A stretch of DNA of 64,000 nt, taken from Blastocatellia bacterium (GTDB taxonomy: Bacteria > Acidobacteriota > Blastocatellia > Pyrinomonadales > Pyrinomonadaceae). The stretch spans positions 372,001 through 436,000 of the forward strand of contig PMSM01000006.1 of the NCBI GenBank assembly GCA_003168335.1, in the 5' to 3' direction. The notes beneath the pieces were generated by a model. The model worked only from the letters and a program-made list of their open reading frames with translations, had not been told where the DNA came from and ran no database searches. The stretch's first letter is position 1. Each line of letters opens with the position of its first letter. A program made the translations under genes and the position numbers. This document shows, piece after piece, positions 1 through 60,890 of the stretch.

Positions 1-856
1 TCCAACCTACAAAATGGTTTTCAAGAGTGAACTTGTCCGCTTCTCTGTTGCTCGCCATATACCGGGGGTGGTTCAGAGGAAAACTCATTGCCTCGGTCGC
101 CAAATTAGCTGATGGGTTGTCCAGGGCTTTGGTGTGGGTGGCGTCATTTCCCCATCCGATATTGGAAATCAAATTTACGTTCGGCAAAATCGCCAAACCG
201 TGCTGGGCCCAGCAGGAAAAAATCCATTGGTAATCCCACACGTCTGAATTGCTGCTCAGACCGTCAAACACGGCCCGCCAGTACGCGGCAGATTCCCGGT
301 CGCCAAGTGTGTCCGGGAGCCAGCTAGTCTCGCGTAGTTCCGGCCAGATCTTTGCTTCGAAATCGTAAAGCTGCCAGGCCCTGCGCCAGGTGGCCCAACC
401 CCAGGTGTGCGGGTATCTCGAAAAGTAGTAACTCTCTATCGTGCGTCTGGTTCCATGCTGAAAATTATTACCGCTAATGGTCATTACGCGCTTATCGTTG
501 CGGTAATACTCGAGCAACTCTTCGCAGAAACGGAAGAAGGTCGGATGAGGCAGGCAATCGTCCTCCAGGATAATAGCCTCTTCGACATTTTGAAAAACCC
601 AATTAATTCCGGATGCCGGTCGCCGGCCGCAACCCAGATTTACGTCCGAGTAGTTCTTGAGCACCTCACAATCCCAATTCGGATTCTCAACGATTGCGCG
701 CGCCGCAAGGCACCGCTCTTCTTCGCCGGGCTGATCCGCACGTGGGCCATCCGCAATCACCAACAGCTTCGCTGGGCGGGCTTTGCCAATCTCAGCGAAG
801 ATGCGCGCGGTCAACTCGGGACGGTTGAAGATTAGTAAGGCGACGGGCGTGTTCAA
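1..856 (-). CDS. HlpA-like family 2 glycosyltransferase (3' end off window)
   Basis: Reading the minus strand from a TTG at 856 gives 285 uninterrupted codons that run off the left edge. The protein opens with a GT-A type start (PVALLIFNRPE, residues 4-14), has IADGPR at 34-39, an acidic EDD metal/nucleotide-binding triad at 98-100 (IILEDDCLP) and a Trp-rich HTWGWATWRRAW stretch. This pattern is typical of the glycosyltransferases often labelled hemolytic protein HlpA-like, which transfer a sugar in surface-glycan assembly; a haemolytic role is not implied. TTG is the first possible start because an in-frame TGA lies three codons upstream; a purine-rich GAGAAAAAG precedes it. It follows the methyltransferase at 928-1587 with about 70 bp between them. 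The donor and acceptor cannot be read from sequence. Confidence 0.82.
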   Translation of the reverse strand, partial: MNTPVALLIFNRPELTARIFAEIGKARPAKLLVIADGPRADQPGEEERCLAARAIVENPNWDCEVLKNYSDVNLGCGRRPASGINWVFQNVEEAIILEDDCLPHPTFFRFCEELLEYYRNDKRVMTISGNNFQHGTRRTIESYYFSRYPHTWGWATWRRAWQLYDFEAKIWPELRETSWLPDTLGDRESAAYWRAVFDGLSSNSDVWDYQWIFSCWAQHGLAILPNVNLISNIGWGNDATHTKALDNPSANLATEAMSFPLNHPRYMASNREADKFTLENHFVGW

Positions 857-52297: not shown

Positions 52298-53452
52298 TCA
52301 ACGAATCGGTTCCCAACGCGCATAGCGCTCACCGCGCAGAAACTGGTAGCAGGCAATCAGCGACGCCAGATTGGTCAGCATGAAGTATTGTGGGAACGCC
52401 AACAGCCGGCTCCGAATTCCCACGCGATCCAATGCCCACGCGAGTGCCGGACACGCATAGCCGGCCGCCTGCGCCGCAAATGCTAATCGATAAACCAGGG
52501 AGCCTGGCGCCAGAACGGCTGAGGCAACGAACAGGCCCATCAGAAAGAATGGCACCAGATAACGCATGACCTTGTGCGAAAGAAGTTGCACGCCGTAAAA
52601 GCCGCTGTGAAGTGGATTGAGCATCGCACGATGTCGCCACAGGTCGGTGAAAGTCTGCGCGATGATCCGTACACGCATCTTCAATTCTTTGTCGCTCTGC
52701 CGGTTAGTCTGCTCAGTACAAACCGCGTTCGGTTCGTAAACAGCGCGCAGGCTCTGCTCGACCATTTTGGTGGCAATAATGAAATCGCTGCAGGCTTCGT
52801 GGTAGAGCGGAACGTAAGCAGAACGGCGCACCGCGTAGAGACACCCTGACGCGCCAATCAGCGAACCCACGCGGCTTTCGTGTCGCTTAAGAAATGTTTC
52901 ATAGCTCCAATACGAACGCGCGCCACGTCCCACATCCGAATCCGAACCATCAACGTATTCGAGACGCCCGGCAACGCACCCGACTGATGAATCAACAAAA
53001 CTCGGCATCATCGCGCGCACCGCGTTCGGTTGATAGAGACTGGTAGCATCGGAAAAAAGAATAATCTCGCCGCGCGCTAATTCAACTGCCGCATTCTGCG
53101 CTGCGGTTTTCCCCAACCGTTCGGACTGGCGATGGAGTCGCACCCCGCGGCCGGCGAATTCCCGCACGATTTCATCCGTGCGATCAGTCGAGCAGTCGGA
53201 AGCGACAATTGTCTCCAGTAACTCGCGCGGATAATCGAGGGCCAGAGTGTTTTCGAGTTTGGCTGCCAGATCGCGCTCTTCGTTGTACGCCGTGATGATG
53301 ACACTGACCGTCGGTGTAAATTCTCCGCGTCGCACTTTCTGAGGTCTCAAGGAGCTGACCAATGCCAGCAGCAACGGATAGCCGGCATAGGTGTAGAAGA
53401 GCGCCGCGACGCTCAACCAAAAGATTACCTCTGCTGCCAATCTCAGGATCAT
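52298..53452 (-). CDS. Family 2 glycosyltransferase with C-terminal membrane spans
   Basis: A 384-residue processive-type GT2. One span is at the start (IFWLSVAALFYTYAGYPLLLALV), then VSVIITAYNEERDL, ASDCSTDRT and FSDATSLYQPNAVR, with two or three spans after residue 290 (VMRYLVPFFLMGLFVASAVL). This domain order matches membrane-bound GT2 enzymes of cellulose-synthase or hyaluronan-synthase type. Its ATG overlaps the ligase stop by four bases (ATGA). It may build a polysaccharide backbone, or act in exosortase-type loci; neither is proved. Confidence 0.86.
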   Translation of the reverse strand: MILRLAAEVIFWLSVAALFYTYAGYPLLLALVSSLRPQKVRRGEFTPTVSVIITAYNEERDLAAKLENTLALDYPRELLETIVASDCSTDRTDEIVREFAGRGVRLHRQSERLGKTAAQNAAVELARGEIILFSDATSLYQPNAVRAMMPSFVDSSVGCVAGRLEYVDGSDSDVGRGARSYWSYETFLKRHESRVGSLIGASGCLYAVRRSAYVPLYHEACSDFIIATKMVEQSLRAVYEPNAVCTEQTNRQSDKELKMRVRIIAQTFTDLWRHRAMLNPLHSGFYGVQLLSHKVMRYLVPFFLMGLFVASAVLAPGSLVYRLAFAAQAAGYACPALAWALDRVGIRSRLLAFPQYFMLTNLASLIACYQFLRGERYARWEPIR

Positions 53453-54942
53453 GTCATCACTGGGCTGCTCTTACTGATCTGAAGCGCTTCAGCTTTCCTG
53501 CGGTCCTTGCGCGTTTCCGGAACCACAGCTTTCCCGGTTTCCGATTCGTACATCCGCGTCAGGCAAACCGCATAACCCACCAGGTAATAGACATACCAGA
53601 CATAGGCGACCGACAGGAAAATGCTGGAAACAAGGTACGCGATCAGCGACGCCTGAAGCCCCAGCGTCAAATAGTAGAAACGCGAATCGCGACGCGTCGC
53701 GAAGGTTTCACGGGCTATCTGGCCCAATTTCCTGAGTGGCGTGACGATGAACATCGTGTAGCATGCGAGCGCCGTCATCCCCATCTCTGCGGCGACCTGG
53801 GTATAAGAATTGTGAGTAACCAGCCCTTTGTATGACATTTCCGGCTGATAGTTTCCCATCCCAATCCCCAGCAACGGATGTCGGAGCGCGACGTAAATAG
53901 ATCGGAAAAGCTCTCCTCGGCGCGAGTCAGCGGACCCTTCGGGATCGAGACTGGGAATAAAGATCGAGAGCAAACGGCTGCCGTACTTGTCGGGGGCCAG
54001 GAGGACTATGACTCCGGCAAAGCTCAGTACCGCGAATACAATCTCCAGACGGCGGCTGCGCCCCAGCTTCCAGGCGATGAAAAGAAGAGCGATGAGCATG
54101 CCGATGAAAGCCCCGCGCGAATACGAAAGCACAATGGCCGCGATCATCACCGCGGCACATGCACCATAAAGAAGTTTTCGGGCCACTCCCTGCGAGCCGA
54201 AGAAGAGAGCCACGGAAATCGGGAGTACAGTGACCAGGTGCAGCGCCATGTCGTTCGTATTACCAAAGATGCCCGTACCTCTGCCGGCCGCGCGATAGCC
54301 CTCGATTGTCATCAGGCCCAGTCGATAATCATTAATGGCGTCGACGCTTAACCAGATGCCGGCCGCCATTGCCAAAAAGAGGAGGCCTTTCAGCCTCGCT
54401 TCAGTCCGCACCACGTTAACCATCACGATGAAAATTACGATACAGCGAATGAAAGTGCCGCTGAACTCAGCCCAGGCTTCCTGCTGGTTGATCGCTAACG
54501 GGATCGAAAACAATCCGGTCAGACAAAAGAGCAGGACCAGGTTTACTTCACGGGGACGCGCGGTCAGAGTGCCCTCCAGTGAAAGCTGAGTGGGAATGAA
54601 AAAACCGAGCGTCGCGATGCCGACCAACAAAGCTATTGATGCCGTCAAACGAGACGGATAGAACTCAGCCGGGCGCGCATACAGAATCAGCGTGAAGAGA
54701 AACAGAGCCGCGTACGAGAAAGCATGGCCATGCTTCAAAAACGTAGCGCTGAAAGTGTCTTGATCAGAAGTCGAACTCGCCTTCGCCGTCGGCTCCTGCG
54801 GCTTAAGCGGTGGCGGGCCTTTTCCGGAGCCACCTTTCGGCTTAACCGGCCACACGTTTACCAGAGAGTGCCCCGTTTCACTCAACCGTGGTCCTGAACG
54901 GGTCACCGGCTGGTAATCATTCTGTGGTTGTCGCCTCAGCAT
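53449..54942 (-). CDS. O-antigen ligase/polymerase family protein
   Basis: About 497 residues from the ATG at 54942; a TTG at 54969 is possible but lies at the end of a terminator. After a proline-rich 70-residue cytoplasmic tail there are about ten membrane spans (YAALFLFTLILYARPAEFYPS onward) and a large loop with HPLLGIGMGNYQPEMSYKGLVTHNSYTQVAAEMG, the conserved Wzy_C/O-antigen ligase signature with HN. It polymerises lipid-linked repeats or ligates them to an acceptor in the periplasm. It starts a four-gene operon just after the terminator of a sigma-like gene. Confidence 0.88.
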   Translation of the reverse strand: MLRRQPQNDYQPVTRSGPRLSETGHSLVNVWPVKPKGGSGKGPPPLKPQEPTAKASSTSDQDTFSATFLKHGHAFSYAALFLFTLILYARPAEFYPSRLTASIALLVGIATLGFFIPTQLSLEGTLTARPREVNLVLLFCLTGLFSIPLAINQQEAWAEFSGTFIRCIVIFIVMVNVVRTEARLKGLLFLAMAAGIWLSVDAINDYRLGLMTIEGYRAAGRGTGIFGNTNDMALHLVTVLPISVALFFGSQGVARKLLYGACAAVMIAAIVLSYSRGAFIGMLIALLFIAWKLGRSRRLEIVFAVLSFAGVIVLLAPDKYGSRLLSIFIPSLDPEGSADSRRGELFRSIYVALRHPLLGIGMGNYQPEMSYKGLVTHNSYTQVAAEMGMTALACYTMFIVTPLRKLGQIARETFATRRDSRFYYLTLGLQASLIAYLVSSIFLSVAYVWYVYYLVGYAVCLTRMYESETGKAVVPETRKDRRKAEALQISKSSPVMT

Positions 54943-54974
54943 TCCTGACACTCGACCGCAACCAATCAAACATA

Positions 54975-55001
54975 AAGAAAAAGCGCAGGCTCCCTGCGCT
55001 T
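54975..55001 (-). terminator. Intrinsic terminator of the sigma-like gene
   Basis: On the minus strand a 9-bp GC-rich stem (AAGCGCAGG/CCTGCGCTT) with a 3-base loop runs straight into TTTCTTTATG, giving a T-run. It lies 47 bases after the sigma-like stop and just before the ligase start. It may let little through to the ligase operon, and read-through would control it. Confidence 0.75.
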
Positions 55002-55048
55002 CTTCGGTACTTGTATCGCTTCCGCAAATTCAGACGAATTGCGCGGAC

Positions 55049-56284
55049 CTAAATAGCAGCGCTTTGTTCGTCATCAACCGCCACCAAAGTGCGGACGCGT
55101 TCACGCAGGGCTAACTCAAACATGCGCGCTTCTTCCACTTCGGTAAACGAAAGCGCGCGCAACTCTTGCTCAATGCGGCGCCGATAGTCGGACACCAAGG
55201 AATCAGAAACGCCTAATGTAGCGGCAACTTCCAATTGCGTCGCATGGTCAGGGCTCAAATAACAGTGCCACAGCACCCCCAGCATGCGGTTGTACTGTTT
55301 GATCTTCCCACGGACATTGCCCCGCAGGTTTTTCAAAAACTCGTCCACACAACCCGCCGCTTCGCGCTCGGATTCGTGACGCAATAGGCTCTGTTCCGGA
55401 TTTTCACGCAAGTCGGCCGGGTCGTAATGTGGGCCATCCGAATCGGGATCGTCGCCGCCCAGCGGCACCAGGTAAATATCCATCACGGGCAGGCGCGACA
55501 TGACCAGACTGCGCAACGTGCGTACGTCGGCCGGCGCATCGATCGCGTCAAGGACCGAAACAATCAGGTCTTCCAGATCCGAATTGCTGATCACAATCTG
55601 CGCATCGCCGGTGCATCCAACCATGCGTGTGTCGCGCTGGCGAACCGGAATCATGTGCGCGCGCTGTTCCATTTCGTGCGAGCCGCGGCCCGCTTTGCTG
55701 TCCGACCACTCGCTCAGTCCATAGACTCGATCTGCCAGACGGCGGTGTTGCTCTTCACCCATCCCGCTGCTGTCAAAGCGGCGAAAGTTGGTACTGGATT
55801 GGATTAAGGTGGAGATGCGTCGCGCGAGCCGGTAACTCTCCGGGTGGCGCTTGCGAAGTTCCGCCGTCAATAGATTCGTTAATTCTATCTGGCCAATCTC
55901 ACATTCGATCTCGGCATTGGTCATCGCCGTATCCAGGTAATGCTGGAAGCGCGACTTGGTGAGCAACTGAACAAATAGCTCCTGCGTGAGATCGGTGTAG
56001 GCGCTCGTCGCTCCCTCTTCAATCAACAGGCCGGCGCTGCGAGAAGCGCGAACCAGCGGGTGATTGCTGACGATGCGGTGTAGTTCCGCCCACAGACGGT
56101 TGACGTCAGAGTTTTGCAAGCTTTCAACCCAGTGGCCTGCTCTGGCGCTGCGTTCGGCAGAGCGACTCGTGCGTGGCACTTCACGAGGCACACTGACGGT
56201 GGAATCTGGGGTCGTCTTATGAGTAATTGATTTCACGGTAGTAGAGTTGTCCCGATAGATGAGCGTGGATGAACTAGTTGGCAA
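55049..56284 (-). CDS. Divergent sigma-70-family-like regulator
   Basis: About 411 residues from a TTG at 56284; a GTG 16 codons in is an alternative. The segment YTDLTQELFVQLL near residue 95 looks like sigma region 2, and the last 60 residues (QLEVAATLGVSDSLVSDYRRRIEQELRALS) form a helix-turn-helix like region 4. Between them are about 200 residues of unmatched, acidic linker (LGGDDPDSDGPHYDPADL). It is longer than ECF sigma factors, so it may be a degenerate or specialised sigma factor. The TTG lies inside a 17-bp palindrome. A promoter is seen far upstream. Confidence 0.65.
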   Translation of the reverse strand: MPTSSSTLIYRDNSTTVKSITHKTTPDSTVSVPREVPRTSRSAERSARAGHWVESLQNSDVNRLWAELHRIVSNHPLVRASRSAGLLIEEGATSAYTDLTQELFVQLLTKSRFQHYLDTAMTNAEIECEIGQIELTNLLTAELRKRHPESYRLARRISTLIQSSTNFRRFDSSGMGEEQHRRLADRVYGLSEWSDSKAGRGSHEMEQRAHMIPVRQRDTRMVGCTGDAQIVISNSDLEDLIVSVLDAIDAPADVRTLRSLVMSRLPVMDIYLVPLGGDDPDSDGPHYDPADLRENPEQSLLRHESEREAAGCVDEFLKNLRGNVRGKIKQYNRMLGVLWHCYLSPDHATQLEVAATLGVSDSLVSDYRRRIEQELRALSFTEVEEARMFELALRERVRTLVAVDDEQSAAI

Positions 56285-56289
56285 CTAGT
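56273..56289. promoter_or_regulatory. Palindrome overlapping the sigma-like start codon
   Basis: ACTAGTTG and CAACTAGT flank one base, giving a perfect 17-bp palindrome that contains the TTG start of the sigma-like gene. Next to it, AATGATC is repeated directly at 56290-56296 and 56298-56304 with one base between. Both look like protein-binding sites, perhaps for autoregulation, and suggest the true start is further downstream. Confidence 0.45.
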
Positions 56290-56304
56290 AATGATCGAAT
56301 GATC

Positions 56305-56767
56305 ACTGGCATCCGCAGTTGGCTGTGCACCTTGCTTTCAAGTTGTTCGATGACCCGCTGGAAGGTTTTTGGGAGGCTCGCTGGAGGCAAAGCTAACCGG
56401 CTGAAGACAGAGCGAAGCGGCTTCATCGAGACGCGTACAGCTATTCTTTTTACCTTTTCAATCCCGGAAAGATGATGCTTGTTCCCGACTCTTCTCAGCC
56501 GGGCAAAAGCGGGAAACTGCAGGTTCGATGAAACGCTTTCACTTCTTTGCGTCATCGAGAAGGATGTTAAGGAGTGAAGCACCCCTCGATCAACCTTCGG
56601 CTATCTTAGCAACAAATTCAAAAATGGGCAACATTTTTTTACACAGCGCGCAAGCTATTGACCTGCTTAGAGAAAACCCGGGTTAGTGAAGAGCGGAACT
56701 CTGGAAAAATGAACCTATTGAAGCTTTTGTGAGGGTGGCTCAGAGGTGGGCCGTCAGGGATTCATCC
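56305..56767. other. Intergenic region between the divergent sigma-like and zinc-finger genes
   Basis: About 460 bp with no supported gene. It holds a leftward promoter candidate at 56603-56631, a T-run at 56634-56640 and, on the plus strand, a TTGACC at 56658-56663 with a weak -10. A 102-codon GTG-initiated frame (56274-56582, minus) spans part of it; it has an amphipathic C-terminal segment but no known family. Confidence 0.5.
56603..56631 (-). promoter_or_regulatory. Possible promoter upstream of the sigma-like gene
   Basis: On the minus strand TTGCCC (56631-56626, four of six) is followed by a 17-bp spacer and TAAGAT (56608-56603, four of six). Transcription would start near 56596, leaving a leader of about 310 bases before the sigma-like gene. 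Confidence 0.4.
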
Positions 56768-57076
56768 ATGCCTTCATCGTTTGCCAGTCTATTTTGCAAG
56801 ACCGCAGATTGCCCTACGTCGCAGGTTTTACTCGCCTGCCGTCGTTCGCTTCTGACTGCTAAAGACGAGGATTACATTGAGAGTCATCTCGCATCTTGCG
56901 ACTTCTGTAGCGCTGAGCTGCAACTGCTCACACGCTATCGTAGCGAGGCCGAGGAGTATTCGTTTGCAGAGATGCCGGCACAACTTCGCCGGCTGGCTGA
57001 AAACCTATTAAAGCGACGTACTGCGCCGTTCAAAGGATTCGCAGAACTCGGAGAGAGCCACCAGGTTTCGCACTGA
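56768..57076 (+). CDS. Small zinc-finger (zf-HC2/anti-sigma-like) protein
   Basis: About 102 residues from the ATG at 56768; an in-frame start 13 codons upstream is less likely. It contains HLASCDFC (H40, C44, C47), the Hx3Cx2C signature of zinc-binding anti-sigma domains, with C10, C15 and C24 nearby. There is no membrane span, so it would be cytoplasmic. Anti-sigma proteins of this sort bind a sigma factor until a signal arrives. The sigma-like gene lies on the opposite strand 480 bp away, so a functional link is possible, not proved. It converges with phoR. Confidence 0.72.
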   Translation: MPSSFASLFCKTADCPTSQVLLACRRSLLTAKDEDYIESHLASCDFCSAELQLLTRYRSEAEEYSFAEMPAQLRRLAENLLKRRTAPFKGFAELGESHQVSH

Positions 57077-57091
57077 GTAATGGCTTCGTCG

Positions 57092-58387
57092 TTAGCCGCC
57101 GGCGCCGGCCGCAGCCTGACGCTCTCCGGCACCGTCGGTGTGCCTGGGAAGGTCGATCGTAAATTGGGTTCCCTCACCAAAGCGGGACTCGACGGTAACT
57201 TCTCCGCCATGGGCTTTCGCGAGGTGCTTGACGATGGCCAGCCCCAGACCCGTGCCGCCAAGTTCGCGCGAGCGGGCTCGATCCACTCGATAGAATCGTT
57301 CGAACAAGCGATCGAGATGATGGGCGGGGATCCCCTCACCTGTGTCTTCGACGCTGATGCGATCACTTGCATTGCTTTCGTATTTGACCGACACCGCGCC
57401 GCCTTCGCGGTTGAACTTGATTGCGTTGTCGATCAAGTTGGTAAGCATCTGCACCAGTCGATGTGGATCGGCAAAAACTTTTACTTCGGTCCCGACGAGA
57501 TTACGAACAGTGATCCTCCGGGTGGTCGCGACGGCTGACAGGCTTCCGACAACATCTTCCACCAGCGCGTGCAGTTGCACAGTCTCCGGTTGCACTTTTA
57601 CGTTGCCCGCTTCGATAGCGCTCAATTCCAGGATGTCATCGATCAGCCGGTGCATTCGCGCCGCATTTTTTTGGATGATGGAAAGAAATCGACGATTGTG
57701 TTCCTGATCGTCAATCGCTCCAGCTTCGAGAGTTTCGGCCAGCGCCATGATCGAGGTTAACGGAGTCCGCAGCTCATGCGAAACGTTCGAGAGAAACTCC
57801 TGCCGGACGAGTTCCAAACGCTCAAGCCTGGTGACATCAAAGAAAACGCCGACTGCGCCGGTCGCGCTTCGTCCGTTTCCTGCCCGCAGAGGCACAACTC
57901 GCAGATCGAAAACTCGCTTTGCCTGGCCGTAGGTTTCGACTTTTACTCCGACCCGCTCTGTTCCGCGCACCGCGTCCAGGAACGCGTCATAAATAGCCGG
58001 GTTCCGGGTCAGTTCAGTCAGACGACGCAAGTTGATCGAGTCGTCCACATGTGCAAACAAAGTCCGCGCGGCCCGGTTCGACGCCACTACGCGCATCTCA
58101 GCATCGATGACCAGCAAACCTTCGCGCATCTCGTTGACGGTGGCATCAAGCAGATCGGAGGAGAAGTCGATGGCGGTCATATCTCGCGAACGGTTCTCAT
58201 GATCGAGTTCGCGCACCCCAGTCGCACGCCCTCTCAAAAGCAAGCCAATGCCTAATCCCAGGAACAGAGTCAGTGCCGGGACAATGAACGCCCGCGGGAA
58301 ACCTGAAAAATAGGCAAGGGAAACGATTAGCGCTGCGAGCGCAGCCAGGACAAAGCCGGAAAGAAAACGGGACTTAATCATCCGCAT
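57092..58387 (-). CDS. phoR: Phosphate-regulon sensor histidine kinase
   Basis: A 431-residue sensor kinase with two membrane spans at about 11-29 and 33-51, a PAS-like domain at about 78-190, HisKA with FLSNVSHELRTPL (H204), and an HATPase with MLTNLIDNAIKFN, GEGIP, GTGLGLAIVKHL. There is almost no periplasmic sensor, as in PhoR, which senses phosphate through the transporter. It phosphorylates PhoB. It overlaps phoB by 14 bp and converges with the zinc-finger gene 15 bp away. Its place after the PiT genes supports the phosphate role. Confidence 0.9.
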   Translation of the reverse strand: MRMIKSRFLSGFVLAALAALIVSLAYFSGFPRAFIVPALTLFLGLGIGLLLRGRATGVRELDHENRSRDMTAIDFSSDLLDATVNEMREGLLVIDAEMRVVASNRAARTLFAHVDDSINLRRLTELTRNPAIYDAFLDAVRGTERVGVKVETYGQAKRVFDLRVVPLRAGNGRSATGAVGVFFDVTRLERLELVRQEFLSNVSHELRTPLTSIMALAETLEAGAIDDQEHNRRFLSIIQKNAARMHRLIDDILELSAIEAGNVKVQPETVQLHALVEDVVGSLSAVATTRRITVRNLVGTEVKVFADPHRLVQMLTNLIDNAIKFNREGGAVSVKYESNASDRISVEDTGEGIPAHHLDRLFERFYRVDRARSRELGGTGLGLAIVKHLAKAHGGEVTVESRFGEGTQFTIDLPRHTDGAGERQAAAGAGG

Positions 58388-59096
58388 TGGCCGCAGCGCT
58401 TACTTTCTCTGCTGCGCAACCTACGAAACGGTAGCCGACGCCGACTACAGTTTCAATGCAGTCGCCACACGCGTCCAGTTTTTGGCGCAAACGACGAATG
58501 TGAACGTCCAGGGTCCGCGCATCGCCGTAGTAACTGTATCCCCAGACCTGATCAAGAAGTTGTTGCCGGGTGACAACCCGGCCCCGCTTTTTCGCCAGGG
58601 CCGAGAGCAACTGGAACTCCTTGTTCGTCAGTTTCACGTTGGCGCCGTCGCATGAGGCGCGCACGTCGGCGAAGTCAATTGTCAGACGGCCATCTTCGTA
58701 ACGTTCTCCCGACTCGTCATCCACTCGGCGCAGCACTGCGCGTACCCGCGCCAGGAGTTCACGTACTGAAAACGGTTTGGCAATGTAATCATCGGCACCC
58801 AGATCCAGGCCGGCGATGCGATCGGCCTCGGATGTTTTTGCCGTCAGCATGATGATCGGCGTGCGGCGAGTTTGGTTTTCGCGTCGCAGCCGGCGACACA
58901 AGTCCATCCCATTCATGCCGGGAAGCATCAGATCCAGGACTATGACGATGGGCGGGTTCTGTGTATCGAGGGCGAGTTTCAGTCCCTGCTCGCCAGTTGA
59001 AGCGACCATCACTGAGAAGCCTGCCGACTCGAGATTGTATCTTACGCTCTCGGCTATATCAGGATCGTCTTCGATGATTAGAGCGGGTTTCGGCAT
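58374..59096 (-). CDS. phoB: Phosphate response regulator (OmpR/PhoB family)
   Basis: A 240-residue response regulator: acidic pair ED/D at 9-11, phospho-acceptor D55 in VLDLMLPG, the LTAK lysine, and KPFSVRELLARV. The C-terminal winged helix (about 135-230; ELLSALAKKRGRVVTRQQLLDQVWGY and DVHIRRLRQKLD) binds DNA. Phosphorylation by PhoR should switch on phosphate-scavenging genes. It is 67 bp after the PiT transporter and overlaps phoR. No clear Pho box was found by eye. Confidence 0.9.
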   Translation of the reverse strand: MPKPALIIEDDPDIAESVRYNLESAGFSVMVASTGEQGLKLALDTQNPPIVIVLDLMLPGMNGMDLCRRLRRENQTRRTPIIMLTAKTSEADRIAGLDLGADDYIAKPFSVRELLARVRAVLRRVDDESGERYEDGRLTIDFADVRASCDGANVKLTNKEFQLLSALAKKRGRVVTRQQLLDQVWGYSYYGDARTLDVHIRRLRQKLDACGDCIETVVGVGYRFVGCAAEKVSAAANADD

Positions 59097-59163
59097 AACC
59101 TGAACGCCTAGGCAGTCGTTGGGTGGTGCGAGTGAAAAATCTGCGCTGCGCTGCGAATGGATC

Positions 59164-60231
59164 TCAACTTACTTTGCCAACAATTACAGAGATCAAACGA
59201 ATAATGAAGAACGATAGCGCCGCAAATGCGGCGGCCGCCGGAATAGTCAGAACCCATGCCCACACGATTCTTCCCGCCACGCGCCATTTGACTGCCGACA
59301 GTCGCGTTGTCGATCCAACTCCGGCAATCGCGCCCGTTATGGTATGCGTAGTGGACACGGGAATTCCGGCCAGCGTGGCGCCGAATAAAGTAATCGCGCC
59401 CGCCGTCTCGGCGCAAAATCCGCCCACCGGCCGGAGTTTTGTGATCTTTGAGCCCATCGTATGAACAATGCGCCAGCCGCCCGAAAGCGTGCCCAGCGCG
59501 ATCGCCGCATGAGCGGTGAGCACTACATAAAGCGGAATCGCCGGCAGAGATCCTTTGTCTCCGAGATGCAAATTGAACAGGCCTCCGGTGGCCAGCACTA
59601 CGGTGATGATCCCCATCGTTTTTTGCGCGTCATTGCCGCCATGGCCCAGCGAGTAGGCGGCCGCCGAAAGTAGTTGTCCGCGCCGAAATGTCCTGTCCAC
59701 CTGCGCCGGCGTCCAACGGTGAAAGATCCAATAGACCGCCACCATCAGCCCGAAACCCATAATGAATCCGATCACCGGTGAAGCAACAATAAAGACGAGC
59801 GTCTTTATCCATCCTTCTGGTTTCAGCAATCCGCCGACGCCGTGGTAAGCAGCAATCGCTGCGCCTGCATAGCCCCCTACTAATGCGTGCGAGCTGGACG
59901 TCGGCAATCCCAGATACCAGGTGATCAAGTTCCAGATGATTGCTCCCAGCAACGCGGCGCACAGAACATAAAGGCGCTGATTCTGCTGAATCAGATCGAT
60001 CCGGACCAGATCTCCGCCAATCGTTCTTGCGACCCGGGTGCCGAAAATCGCGAAGGCGACAAAGTTAAAAGTCGCCGCCCACATCACGGCATAACGCGGG
60101 GAAAGGACGCGCGTCGAAACTACCGTGGCGATGGAATTAGCGGCGTCGTGGAAGCCGTTGGTGAAATCAAAGACCAGGGCGACCACAACTATCAGGAGGA
60201 CAAGAATAACGTTCGCATTGATCTCGGGCAT
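59164..60231 (-). CDS. pit: Inorganic phosphate transporter, PiT family
   Basis: About 355 residues from the ATG at 60231; an earlier frame start would run into the accessory gene. GFHDAANSIATVVSTRV and GGNDAQKTMGIIT are the two inverted PiT repeats, with about ten spans. It imports phosphate (as metal phosphate or with a cation) at low affinity. The next upstream gene is a DUF47 protein, its usual partner. It belongs to the same leftward unit as phoB and phoR. Confidence 0.92.
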   Translation of the reverse strand: MPEINANVILVLLIVVVALVFDFTNGFHDAANSIATVVSTRVLSPRYAVMWAATFNFVAFAIFGTRVARTIGGDLVRIDLIQQNQRLYVLCAALLGAIIWNLITWYLGLPTSSSHALVGGYAGAAIAAYHGVGGLLKPEGWIKTLVFIVASPVIGFIMGFGLMVAVYWIFHRWTPAQVDRTFRRGQLLSAAAYSLGHGGNDAQKTMGIITVVLATGGLFNLHLGDKGSLPAIPLYVVLTAHAAIALGTLSGGWRIVHTMGSKITKLRPVGGFCAETAGAITLFGATLAGIPVSTTHTITGAIAGVGSTTRLSAVKWRVAGRIVWAWVLTIPAAAAFAALSFFIIRLISVIVGKVS

Positions 60232-60260
60232 GGTTTGGGCTAATTGGACGAAGCGTGCCT

Positions 60261-60890
60261 TCAGGTGTTCTTGATTACGATGCGCTCGACCAGGTCTCCG
60301 ACGTGCTGGCAACGATCGACCGTGGCTTCGAGATTCTCGTAAAGGTCTTTCATGACGATCACGTGGTGCACCTCGAACCTTCCTCGAAAAAGATCGCCCA
60401 TGGCCTCGCGGTAGATTTCGTCGCCTTCTCTCTCGAACTCATGCAGTTTCAGCAACCGCGTCCTGAGGTCCTTCGGCCGGTCGAGAGACGGCACAAGCAG
60501 ATCGAGCTCCTGCGCCATCTGCTGGATTACGCCCGCAAACAGTTTCATGAATGGCGTGTATTCCAGGAGGCCGTACATTACCACGGCGCTGGCCAGCCCT
60601 TCAATGAAATCAACCACATCATCCAGGGCGGTTGTCAGCGCGTGGATGTCTTCGCGATCGATGGCCGTAATGAACGACCGGCTGAGCCGCGTGGAGATAT
60701 TGTGAGTGATTTCGTCGCACGCATGTTCGATGGTTTTGATGTGCGCCGCATAGCGCTCTCCTTCGCCGCATTCGTCACCGAACATCTCTGCCAGCGCGTG
60801 GGCGGATTCGCCAAGCAGCGTGGTCATTTGTCCCAGCGAAGAAAGATAGTCTTCCTCCGCTGGCATTATTCCGATACCAAAGAGTCGCAC
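60261..60890 (-). CDS. DUF47 (PhoU-like) accessory protein of the PiT transporter
   Basis: A 209-residue all-helical protein: LGEMTTLLGESAHALAEMF-like opening (residues 19-37), IEHACDEITHNISTRLSRSFITAIDREDIHAL with the acidic metal-binding residues, and LHEFEREGDEIYREAM. This is the DUF47/YkaA family that regulates PiT transporters and may bind metal. The ribosome-binding site GAGGGAG is strong. It heads the leftward phosphate operon, 29 bp before pit. Confidence 0.9.
   Translation of the reverse strand: MRLFGIGIMPAEEDYLSSLGQMTTLLGESAHALAEMFGDECGEGERYAAHIKTIEHACDEITHNISTRLSRSFITAIDREDIHALTTALDDVVDFIEGLASAVVMYGLLEYTPFMKLFAGVIQQMAQELDLLVPSLDRPKDLRTRLLKLHEFEREGDEIYREAMGDLFRGRFEVHHVIVMKDLYENLEATVDRCQHVGDLVERIVIKNT

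Follow-up and report, generated by a model that had tools for sequence, protein, structure and literature searches.

A divergent gene pair encoding sigma-70-family-like and zinc anti-sigma-like proteins beside polysaccharide genes in Pyrinomonadaceae

Two divergent genes beside a polysaccharide locus raise the question of whether a sigma factor and its inhibitor can be encoded divergently and, if so, what such a pair might control. The genes were examined in a 64,000-nucleotide window (the whole stretch of DNA analyzed, from contig PMSM01000006.1 of a Blastocatellia bacterium), for which the first-pass annotation had proposed a sigma-like protein with an anti-sigma-like protein on the opposite strand about 480 bp away. 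The two open reading frames are indeed on opposite strands and read away from each other, and the distance was corrected to 444 bp between the frames as listed or 531 bp between the likely starts (Table 1). For the large, sigma-like protein (P0001) the probable start is the GTG at 56236, giving 395 amino acids, because several relatives of the same genus (L003, L004, and L005) begin with MKS; for the small protein (P0002) it is the ATG at 56768, giving 102 amino acids, because relatives carry F-x-K-x3-C-P close to their start. The reading that we favor, with a probability of about two in three, is that of a sigma-70-family regulator and a cytoplasmic zinc-binding anti-sigma factor encoded on opposite strands, with the adjacent polysaccharide genes as probable targets.

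Table 1. Positions of the gene pair, the parts of the large protein, the control elements, and the adjoining polysaccharide genes
Feature	Position	Strand	Detail
Sigma-70-family-like protein P0001	55049..56284	-	411 aa as listed
P0001, sigma-2-like part	residues about 49-149		Structure comparison, family profiles, intermediate family
P0001, middle domain	residues about 150-274		Conserved
P0001, short acidic stretch	residues 275-299		
P0001, sigma-4-like part	residues about 300-381		Structure comparison, family profiles, intermediate family
Terminator-like hairpin after the sigma-like gene	54977..55005	-	13 pairs, T-rich tail
Leader of the sigma-like gene (predicted, untranslated)	56237..56597	-	Transcription start inferred from the -10 element
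5' hairpin of the leader	about 56560-56597	-	Hairpin at the same position in many relatives
Promoter-like element toward the sigma-like gene	56603..56631	-	Conservation; TTGCCC-N17-TAAGAT, -10 preceded by TG
A-tract TGTAAAAA upstream of the promoter-like element	56636-56643		
Second conserved element, toward the small gene	56700..56721	+	GGAA-N9-TATT in the window
Small soluble zinc anti-sigma-like protein P0002	56729..57076	+	115 aa as listed
Wzy_C protein resembling O-antigen ligases, at the head of the downstream polysaccharide locus	53449..54969	-	Co-directional with P0001
Second gene of that locus, a family 2 glycosyltransferase	52298..53452	-	

Taken singly, neither of the two window proteins gave a significant match to Pfam or NCBIfam, and all matches fell below the curated cut-offs. 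P0001 had no sigma match in Pfam and matched the NCBIfam model sigma70-ECF (TIGR02937) at an E value of 0.021 (14.5 bits against a cut-off of 42.9), reaching none of the curated cut-offs of Pfam Sigma70_r2, Pfam Sigma70_r4, or TIGR02937. As neither protein was significant by itself, family-level evidence was required; the single-sequence results would also suit a chance resemblance, in which the appearance of both genes is misleading. Such a coincidence is already contradicted by the conservation of both reading frames: homologues of the large one were found in 44 of 60 relatives and of the small one in 35, and the divergent arrangement is kept, excluding chance for the frames themselves. Together with the family-profile, structural, and shuffle-controlled evidence given below, this leaves the chance explanation hardly credible.

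The segments on which the sigma assignment had first been based were confirmed: YTDLTQELF occupies residues 96 to 104 of P0001, and the helix-turn-helix-like sequence TQLEVAATLGVSDSLVSDYRRRI occupies residues 349 to 371. What had been described as a long acidic linker between them is long, with about 150 residues between the two sigma-like parts, and is clearly acidic only in the short stretch before the sigma-4-like part (8 D+E, 1 K+R), which is variable (51%). The label of acidic linker for the whole insert was therefore rejected. The remainder of the insert has a mean pairwise identity of 75% and aligns with the middle of a second family of long-linker sigma-like proteins, typified by L142, and thus represents a domain rather than a linker.

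This second family provides the connection to known sigma factors. The wider P0001 profile aligned with the L142-type family at P = 1.4e-10 over window residues of about 68 to 371 (hhalign; reversed control, 0.18; best of 100 column shuffles, 0.047), with 6 of the 7 L142-type loci in the alignment and L150 left out. The L142-type family in turn aligned with 17 ECF sigma factors of the same genome at P = 4.6e-11, a figure without a shuffle control, and the wider P0001 profile compared directly with those 17 ECFs gave 6.3e-4 (best of 100 shuffles, 0.072). In the wider P0001 alignment, 13 of 17 members matched the NCBIfam sigma70-ECF model at an E value of 1 or below, the best at 2.2e-4. Sequence searches of the PDB with P0001 and with its family profile gave no match. 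On the strength of the profile chain and its controls, leading from P0001 through the L142 type to the ECFs, the sequence evidence places P0001 in the sigma-70 family by descent, as a strongly diverged member.

The predicted structures point the same way, although their support for the folds of both proteins is weak in absolute terms. The AlphaFold2 model of P0001 is partly confident (mean pLDDT, 66.5; pTM, 0.33), with ten-residue blocks averaging at least 76 within residues 51 to 80, 91 to 140, and 301 to 400. By title, the first 13 Foldseek rows were complexes or models of sigma factors or RNA polymerase, with a best E value of 0.12 and none below 0.001. With VIA-align, the top row was the -35-binding domain of SigD (Z, 8.7; 62 residues; model residues 311 to 381), and region 2 of SigmaE, SigW, and CnrH aligned with model residues of about 50 to 149 at Z scores of 7.1 to 7.4; scores below 8, or below 13 for helical bundles, may reflect just a common arrangement, and 8 was exceeded once. 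By title, 44 of the 50 VIA-align rows were sigma factors or complexes holding one, five were other helix-turn-helix proteins, and one was unclear. The absence of sigma homology in profile comparison had been named as the result that would speak against the proposal; P0001 alone is insignificant by this measure, and the family profile chain and the structure rows support homology.

Descent from sigma factors need not mean activity as one. The extreme divergence of P0001, its missing Pfam sigma match, and the fact that no regulon motif was found would all be expected of a protein that no longer starts transcription and instead regulates the polysaccharide locus by binding DNA or the polymerase, with P0002 as its modulator. 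Many positions are nevertheless invariant in the DLTQELF segment and in the sigma-4-like helix-turn-helix, as would be expected if binding to the polymerase and to the -35 element were retained. We regard the loss of initiation as doubtful, and P0001 would on the favored reading still initiate transcription at promoters.

The small protein carries the zinc motif C-x24-H-x3-C-x2-C, in which the Hx3Cx2C signature noticed in the first-pass annotation reads HLASCDFC. The wider form C-x20-40-H-x3-C-x2-C was present at 74 of 74 named loci, and in an alignment of 74 partner proteins (the window included and L080 left out), 71 had the C-x24-H spacing and none had a strongly hydrophobic segment (Kyte-Doolittle value above 1.6), in agreement with a small cytoplasmic protein. 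RsrA has a similar Cys-His spacing. Among the 74 partner proteins, matches at an E value of 0.1 or below were obtained to the NCBIfam models RsrA (29), antisigma (22; best, 1.4e-5), RseA (17), and ChrR (14) and to Pfam zf-HC2 (16). P0002 alone matched only the NCBIfam model antisigma, at 13 bits against a cut-off of 100; it did not reach the curated RsrA or ChrR cut-off, neither model being among its matches. The only named anti-sigma chain in the PDB matched by the partner profile at an E value below 0.01 was DdvA (8rlz; 0.0092 over 39 profile positions), with ChrR at 1.6. The best-scoring PDB row, 6mpx, had no stretch passing by itself and was ignored; of two further rows, one was a CHAT-domain protein and the other a designed binder.

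The AlphaFold2 model of P0002 (pLDDT, 79.4; pTM, 0.52) contains helices at residues 18 to 25, 31 to 43, 45 to 57, 71 to 83, and 90 to 96. The second of these contains His40 and is followed immediately by Cys44, and the third contains Cys47, so that Hx3Cx2C runs across helices 2 and 3 as in class I zinc anti-sigma domains (ASDI/ZAS). The first seven Foldseek rows, all weak at E values of at least 0.21, were entries for sigma/anti-sigma complexes (RsiW, ChrR, and the SigK partner), and VIA-align gave likewise weak Z scores of 5.5 for an RsiW entry and 5.4 for an RslA entry. The best structural and profile relatives of P0002 are thus zinc anti-sigma domains. An excerpt of PMC7406223 describes the Hx3Cx2C signature as overrepresented in soluble anti-sigma factors (about 72%) and its bearers as often co-encoded with sigma factors; location next to a sigma gene, which belongs to the description of the class I domain, was found for P0002 homologues in 31 of 34 genomes and at 74 of 80 loci.

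To establish how widely the pair occurs, homologues were counted in 60 relatives. Those of P0001 were present in 35 of the 37 genomes of its own family (f1) and in nine genomes from two further families within the class; in an even draw across the phylum they were found in 15 of 199 genomes (14 in f1 and one in f2). Among the named relatives are Pyrinomonadaceae, Blastocatellia, Chloracidobacterium, and "gp4" Acidobacteria. Homologues of P0002 were found in 34 of the 37 f1 genomes, with one weak match elsewhere (E value, 8.3e-4). Both genes occur in 34 genomes, lying on different contigs in three (G002, G009, and G035) and adjacent and divergent in all 31 genomes that have them on one contig. 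In a second set of named loci (80 kept of 101 relatives), which overlaps the 60-relative set and is not independent of it, the small gene lies divergently upstream of the P0001 homologue at 74 of 80 loci; only 80 to 1,089 bp of upstream DNA is available at the other six. One survey saw the small frame at 26 of 30 loci, the exceptions being L005, L007 (which is G005), L015, and L019, and the copy in G016, the genome behind L019, was detected in a separate search for P0002 homologues. A tblastn search of a plasmid collection gave no match. The divergent arrangement first seen in the window is therefore kept across f1.

Conservation of the pair in relatives, which had been proposed as a check, holds for f1 and not beyond it: a partner gene beside P0001 homologues was found only in f1, and P0002 partners were absent near f2 and f6 homologues at all ten loci with a full homologue. 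G005, of the same genus as the window and with a completeness of 100, has the sigma-like gene with no partner in about 1.4 kb upstream. A second sigma copy in G009 (L163:3854-5026) has no ZAS gene within about 1.0 kb of readable sequence, and a second ZAS copy in G034 (L162:4781-5098) has no sigma gene within the 9.8 kb examined; this single ZAS paralogue adjoins response-regulator-like genes. Obligate pairing as a general rule was rejected on account of the ten f2 and f6 homologues, G005, and the single paralogues. In four of the f2 homologues (L117, L118, L119, and L120), an extra stretch containing RGRPxK separates the sigma-2-like part from the middle domain; it resembles an AT-hook, with Pfam AT_hook reaching just an E value of 0.27 in L119.

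Exceptions of this kind are what would be seen if P0002 were the anti-sigma factor of some other sigma and the two genes merely shared a divergent control region. The single paralogues of each gene without the other and the lone sigma-like gene of G005 suit that explanation, as does the much faster evolution of the ZAS protein, with identities between the window and relatives of 27 to 52%, against 59 to 91% for P0001. It accounts poorly for an adjacency and orientation kept in every same-contig case and at 74 of 80 loci, particularly as the window genes beyond the small gene have homologues at no more than nine of the 80 loci, and related long-linker sigmas also adjoin ZAS-type proteins. We consider it decidedly unlikely. 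The window genes beyond the small gene, at 57092 to 60312 on the minus strand and convergent to it, encode a histidine kinase, a Trans_reg_C response regulator, and a PHO4 phosphate transporter, with homologues at nine, eight, and three of the 80 named loci, respectively; this side thus looks little conserved.

The intergenic region contains conserved elements directed toward each gene. The 8-mer GTTGCTCA occurs in 42 of 68 nonredundant intergenic sequences, whereas in five shuffled sets no 8-mer occurred in more than 18. A seed, GTTG[CT][TCG][CG]A, is present in 61 of 75 intergenic sequences, 59 of which have at least six of eight matches to TGTAAAAA just upstream, and TTG[CT][TCG][CG]A followed after 15 to 17 bases by a -10-like hexamer was found at 59 of the 80 named loci. 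The exact pattern of the window element occurs once in the genome. A plain consensus promoter scan reported no promoter at this position, so the element rests on conservation; it looks like a housekeeping promoter with an extended -10, directed toward the sigma-like gene. The second element recurs as GGAA-N9-YATT and, in one clade of relatives, as TTTTGGAA[GC]-N8-CATTRCAGATTTA, and could possibly be the promoter of the anti-sigma-like gene. Ten matches to its long form were identified in nine genomes, seven at the pair and three elsewhere, with three for the reversed control; as the extra matches equal those of the reversed pattern, they give no sign of a regulon under GGAA-N9-YATT. Its core is present before the Wzy_C gene in two of 42 gaps. 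Of three terminator-like sites found in the region, where 2.7 were expected from shuffles, the hairpin that follows the sigma-like gene has the longest stem, and it suggests that this gene is its own transcription unit.

The predicted leader of the sigma-like gene may be structured. Folding was compared with shuffles at the 59 of 80 named loci that match the strict promoter pattern, leaving out the 21 that do not: the first 45 nucleotides folded more stably than the shuffles on average (mean z, -1.8), with 44 of 59 leaders below -1, whereas elsewhere in those loci z was +0.08 in the promoter and -0.18 at 90 to 135. No credible Rfam match to the leader was obtained, the window leader region giving one match at an E value of 1 or below (0.73, far below the gathering score) and four other loci giving none. 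An RNAalifold consensus over 28 leaders contained no pairs, and among four hand-made groups the consensus structure shifted with the alignment setting in most. Three smaller hand-picked groups (8, 11, and 8 sequences) gave 18, 10, and 10 pairs, with two-sided changes in 3, 4, and 1 of them and covariation terms of +0.53, -0.71, and -0.19, respectively; with so few two-sided changes and such low terms, covariation is modest. Two mutually exclusive stems considered for the leaders of one clade were not borne out in all of its 11 members. Among the candidate structured leaders of L031 to L110, some have a second hairpin with a GCTCGGC loop.

The placement of the pair beside a polysaccharide locus is shared by many relatives. 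A Wzy_C homologue lies downstream on the same strand at 46 of the 64 loci with at least 4 kb of sequence there, within 600 bp in 38 of the 46, and a family 2 glycosyltransferase is downstream at 36 of the 56 loci with at least 6 kb, both as raw counts. A homologue of a window polysaccharide gene (E value of 1e-5 or below) was also identified at seven of the ten f2 and f6 loci that have no partner gene; L114, L119, and L120 had none.

The pair shares features with several known systems. As in ECF sigma factors (group IV) with soluble ZAS proteins, such as SigR/RsrA and RpoE/ChrR, there are sigma-2- and sigma-4-like parts and a small soluble partner in which a Cys precedes Hx3Cx2C at the C-x24-H spacing. 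Excerpts of PMC8103513 define ECF sigmas by a linker of fewer than 50 residues and name cotranscription with the anti-sigma factor as a hallmark. P0001 differs on both counts, with about 150 mostly conserved residues between its parts and with divergent genes that have their own conserved upstream elements; it was therefore, by definition, not filed as an ECF, although it may still work like one. Of the 157 published ECF groups, ECF270 is listed with an acidobacterial member in PMC8999054. The EcfG-NepR-PhyR system, as outlined in the same excerpts of PMC8103513, likewise combines a sigma factor, an anti-sigma factor, and a divergent transcription unit; there, the anti-sigma factor is cotranscribed with the sigma factor and it is the anti-anti-sigma factor that is divergent. 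DdvA is the one named anti-sigma factor that the partner profile recovered at an E value below 0.01.

The L142/L144 long-linker family of Acidobacteriota (358 amino acids for the member on G000:C14) is a further relative, in which the parts, the middle domain among them, follow the order seen in P0001. At four of seven loci it has a neighboring ZAS-type gene, on the same strand and downstream, with an N-terminal Hx3Cx2C. Unlike P0002, these partners are larger (336 to 464 amino acids), encoded on the same strand, and directly downstream. L142, the member scanned, scores 27.4 bits with Pfam Sigma70_r4, above the cut-off of 24.1, whereas P0001 reaches no such cut-off. The genome of the window also encodes L142/L144 (G000:C14, about 671.6 to 672.7 kb), likewise a long-linker sigma-like protein. 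Downstream of it on the same strand is a 464-amino-acid protein (L144:25-1419) with two Hx3Cx2C motifs and zf-HC2 above the cut-off (38.1 against 22.2 bits), and a similar arrangement is found in L145, L147, and L148.

The divergent sigma/ZAS module probably controls polysaccharide synthesis. What the analysis shows is the homology, the zinc motif, a pair conserved in its divergent order, conserved elements upstream of the genes, and polysaccharide genes alongside; from these a mechanism can be outlined in which we infer binding, inhibition, signal, promoter recognition, and targets. A housekeeping-type promoter of its own, followed by a structured leader, would drive expression of the sigma-like protein, which would be kept inactive by the small four-helix ZAS protein; the zinc motif of the latter and its conserved fourth helix (IPxPLxxLAEALL) are the likely contacts. 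Release might follow a cytoplasmic signal, possibly oxidation or loss of zinc at the C/H/C/C site, for which RsrA and ChrR provide the precedent. Once freed, the sigma-like protein would guide RNA polymerase to the polysaccharide genes next to it and, perhaps, to the anti-sigma gene.

In the open-license literature searched, which mostly excludes subscription papers, no paper on a Pyrinomonadaceae sigma factor or a Blastocatellia anti-sigma factor was found. If the proposed module is correct, it would allow a test of whether an anti-sigma gene placed on the opposite strand with its own element sets the levels of sigma factor and inhibitor separately, and the pair would offer a defined handle on the control of surface polysaccharide in these bacteria.
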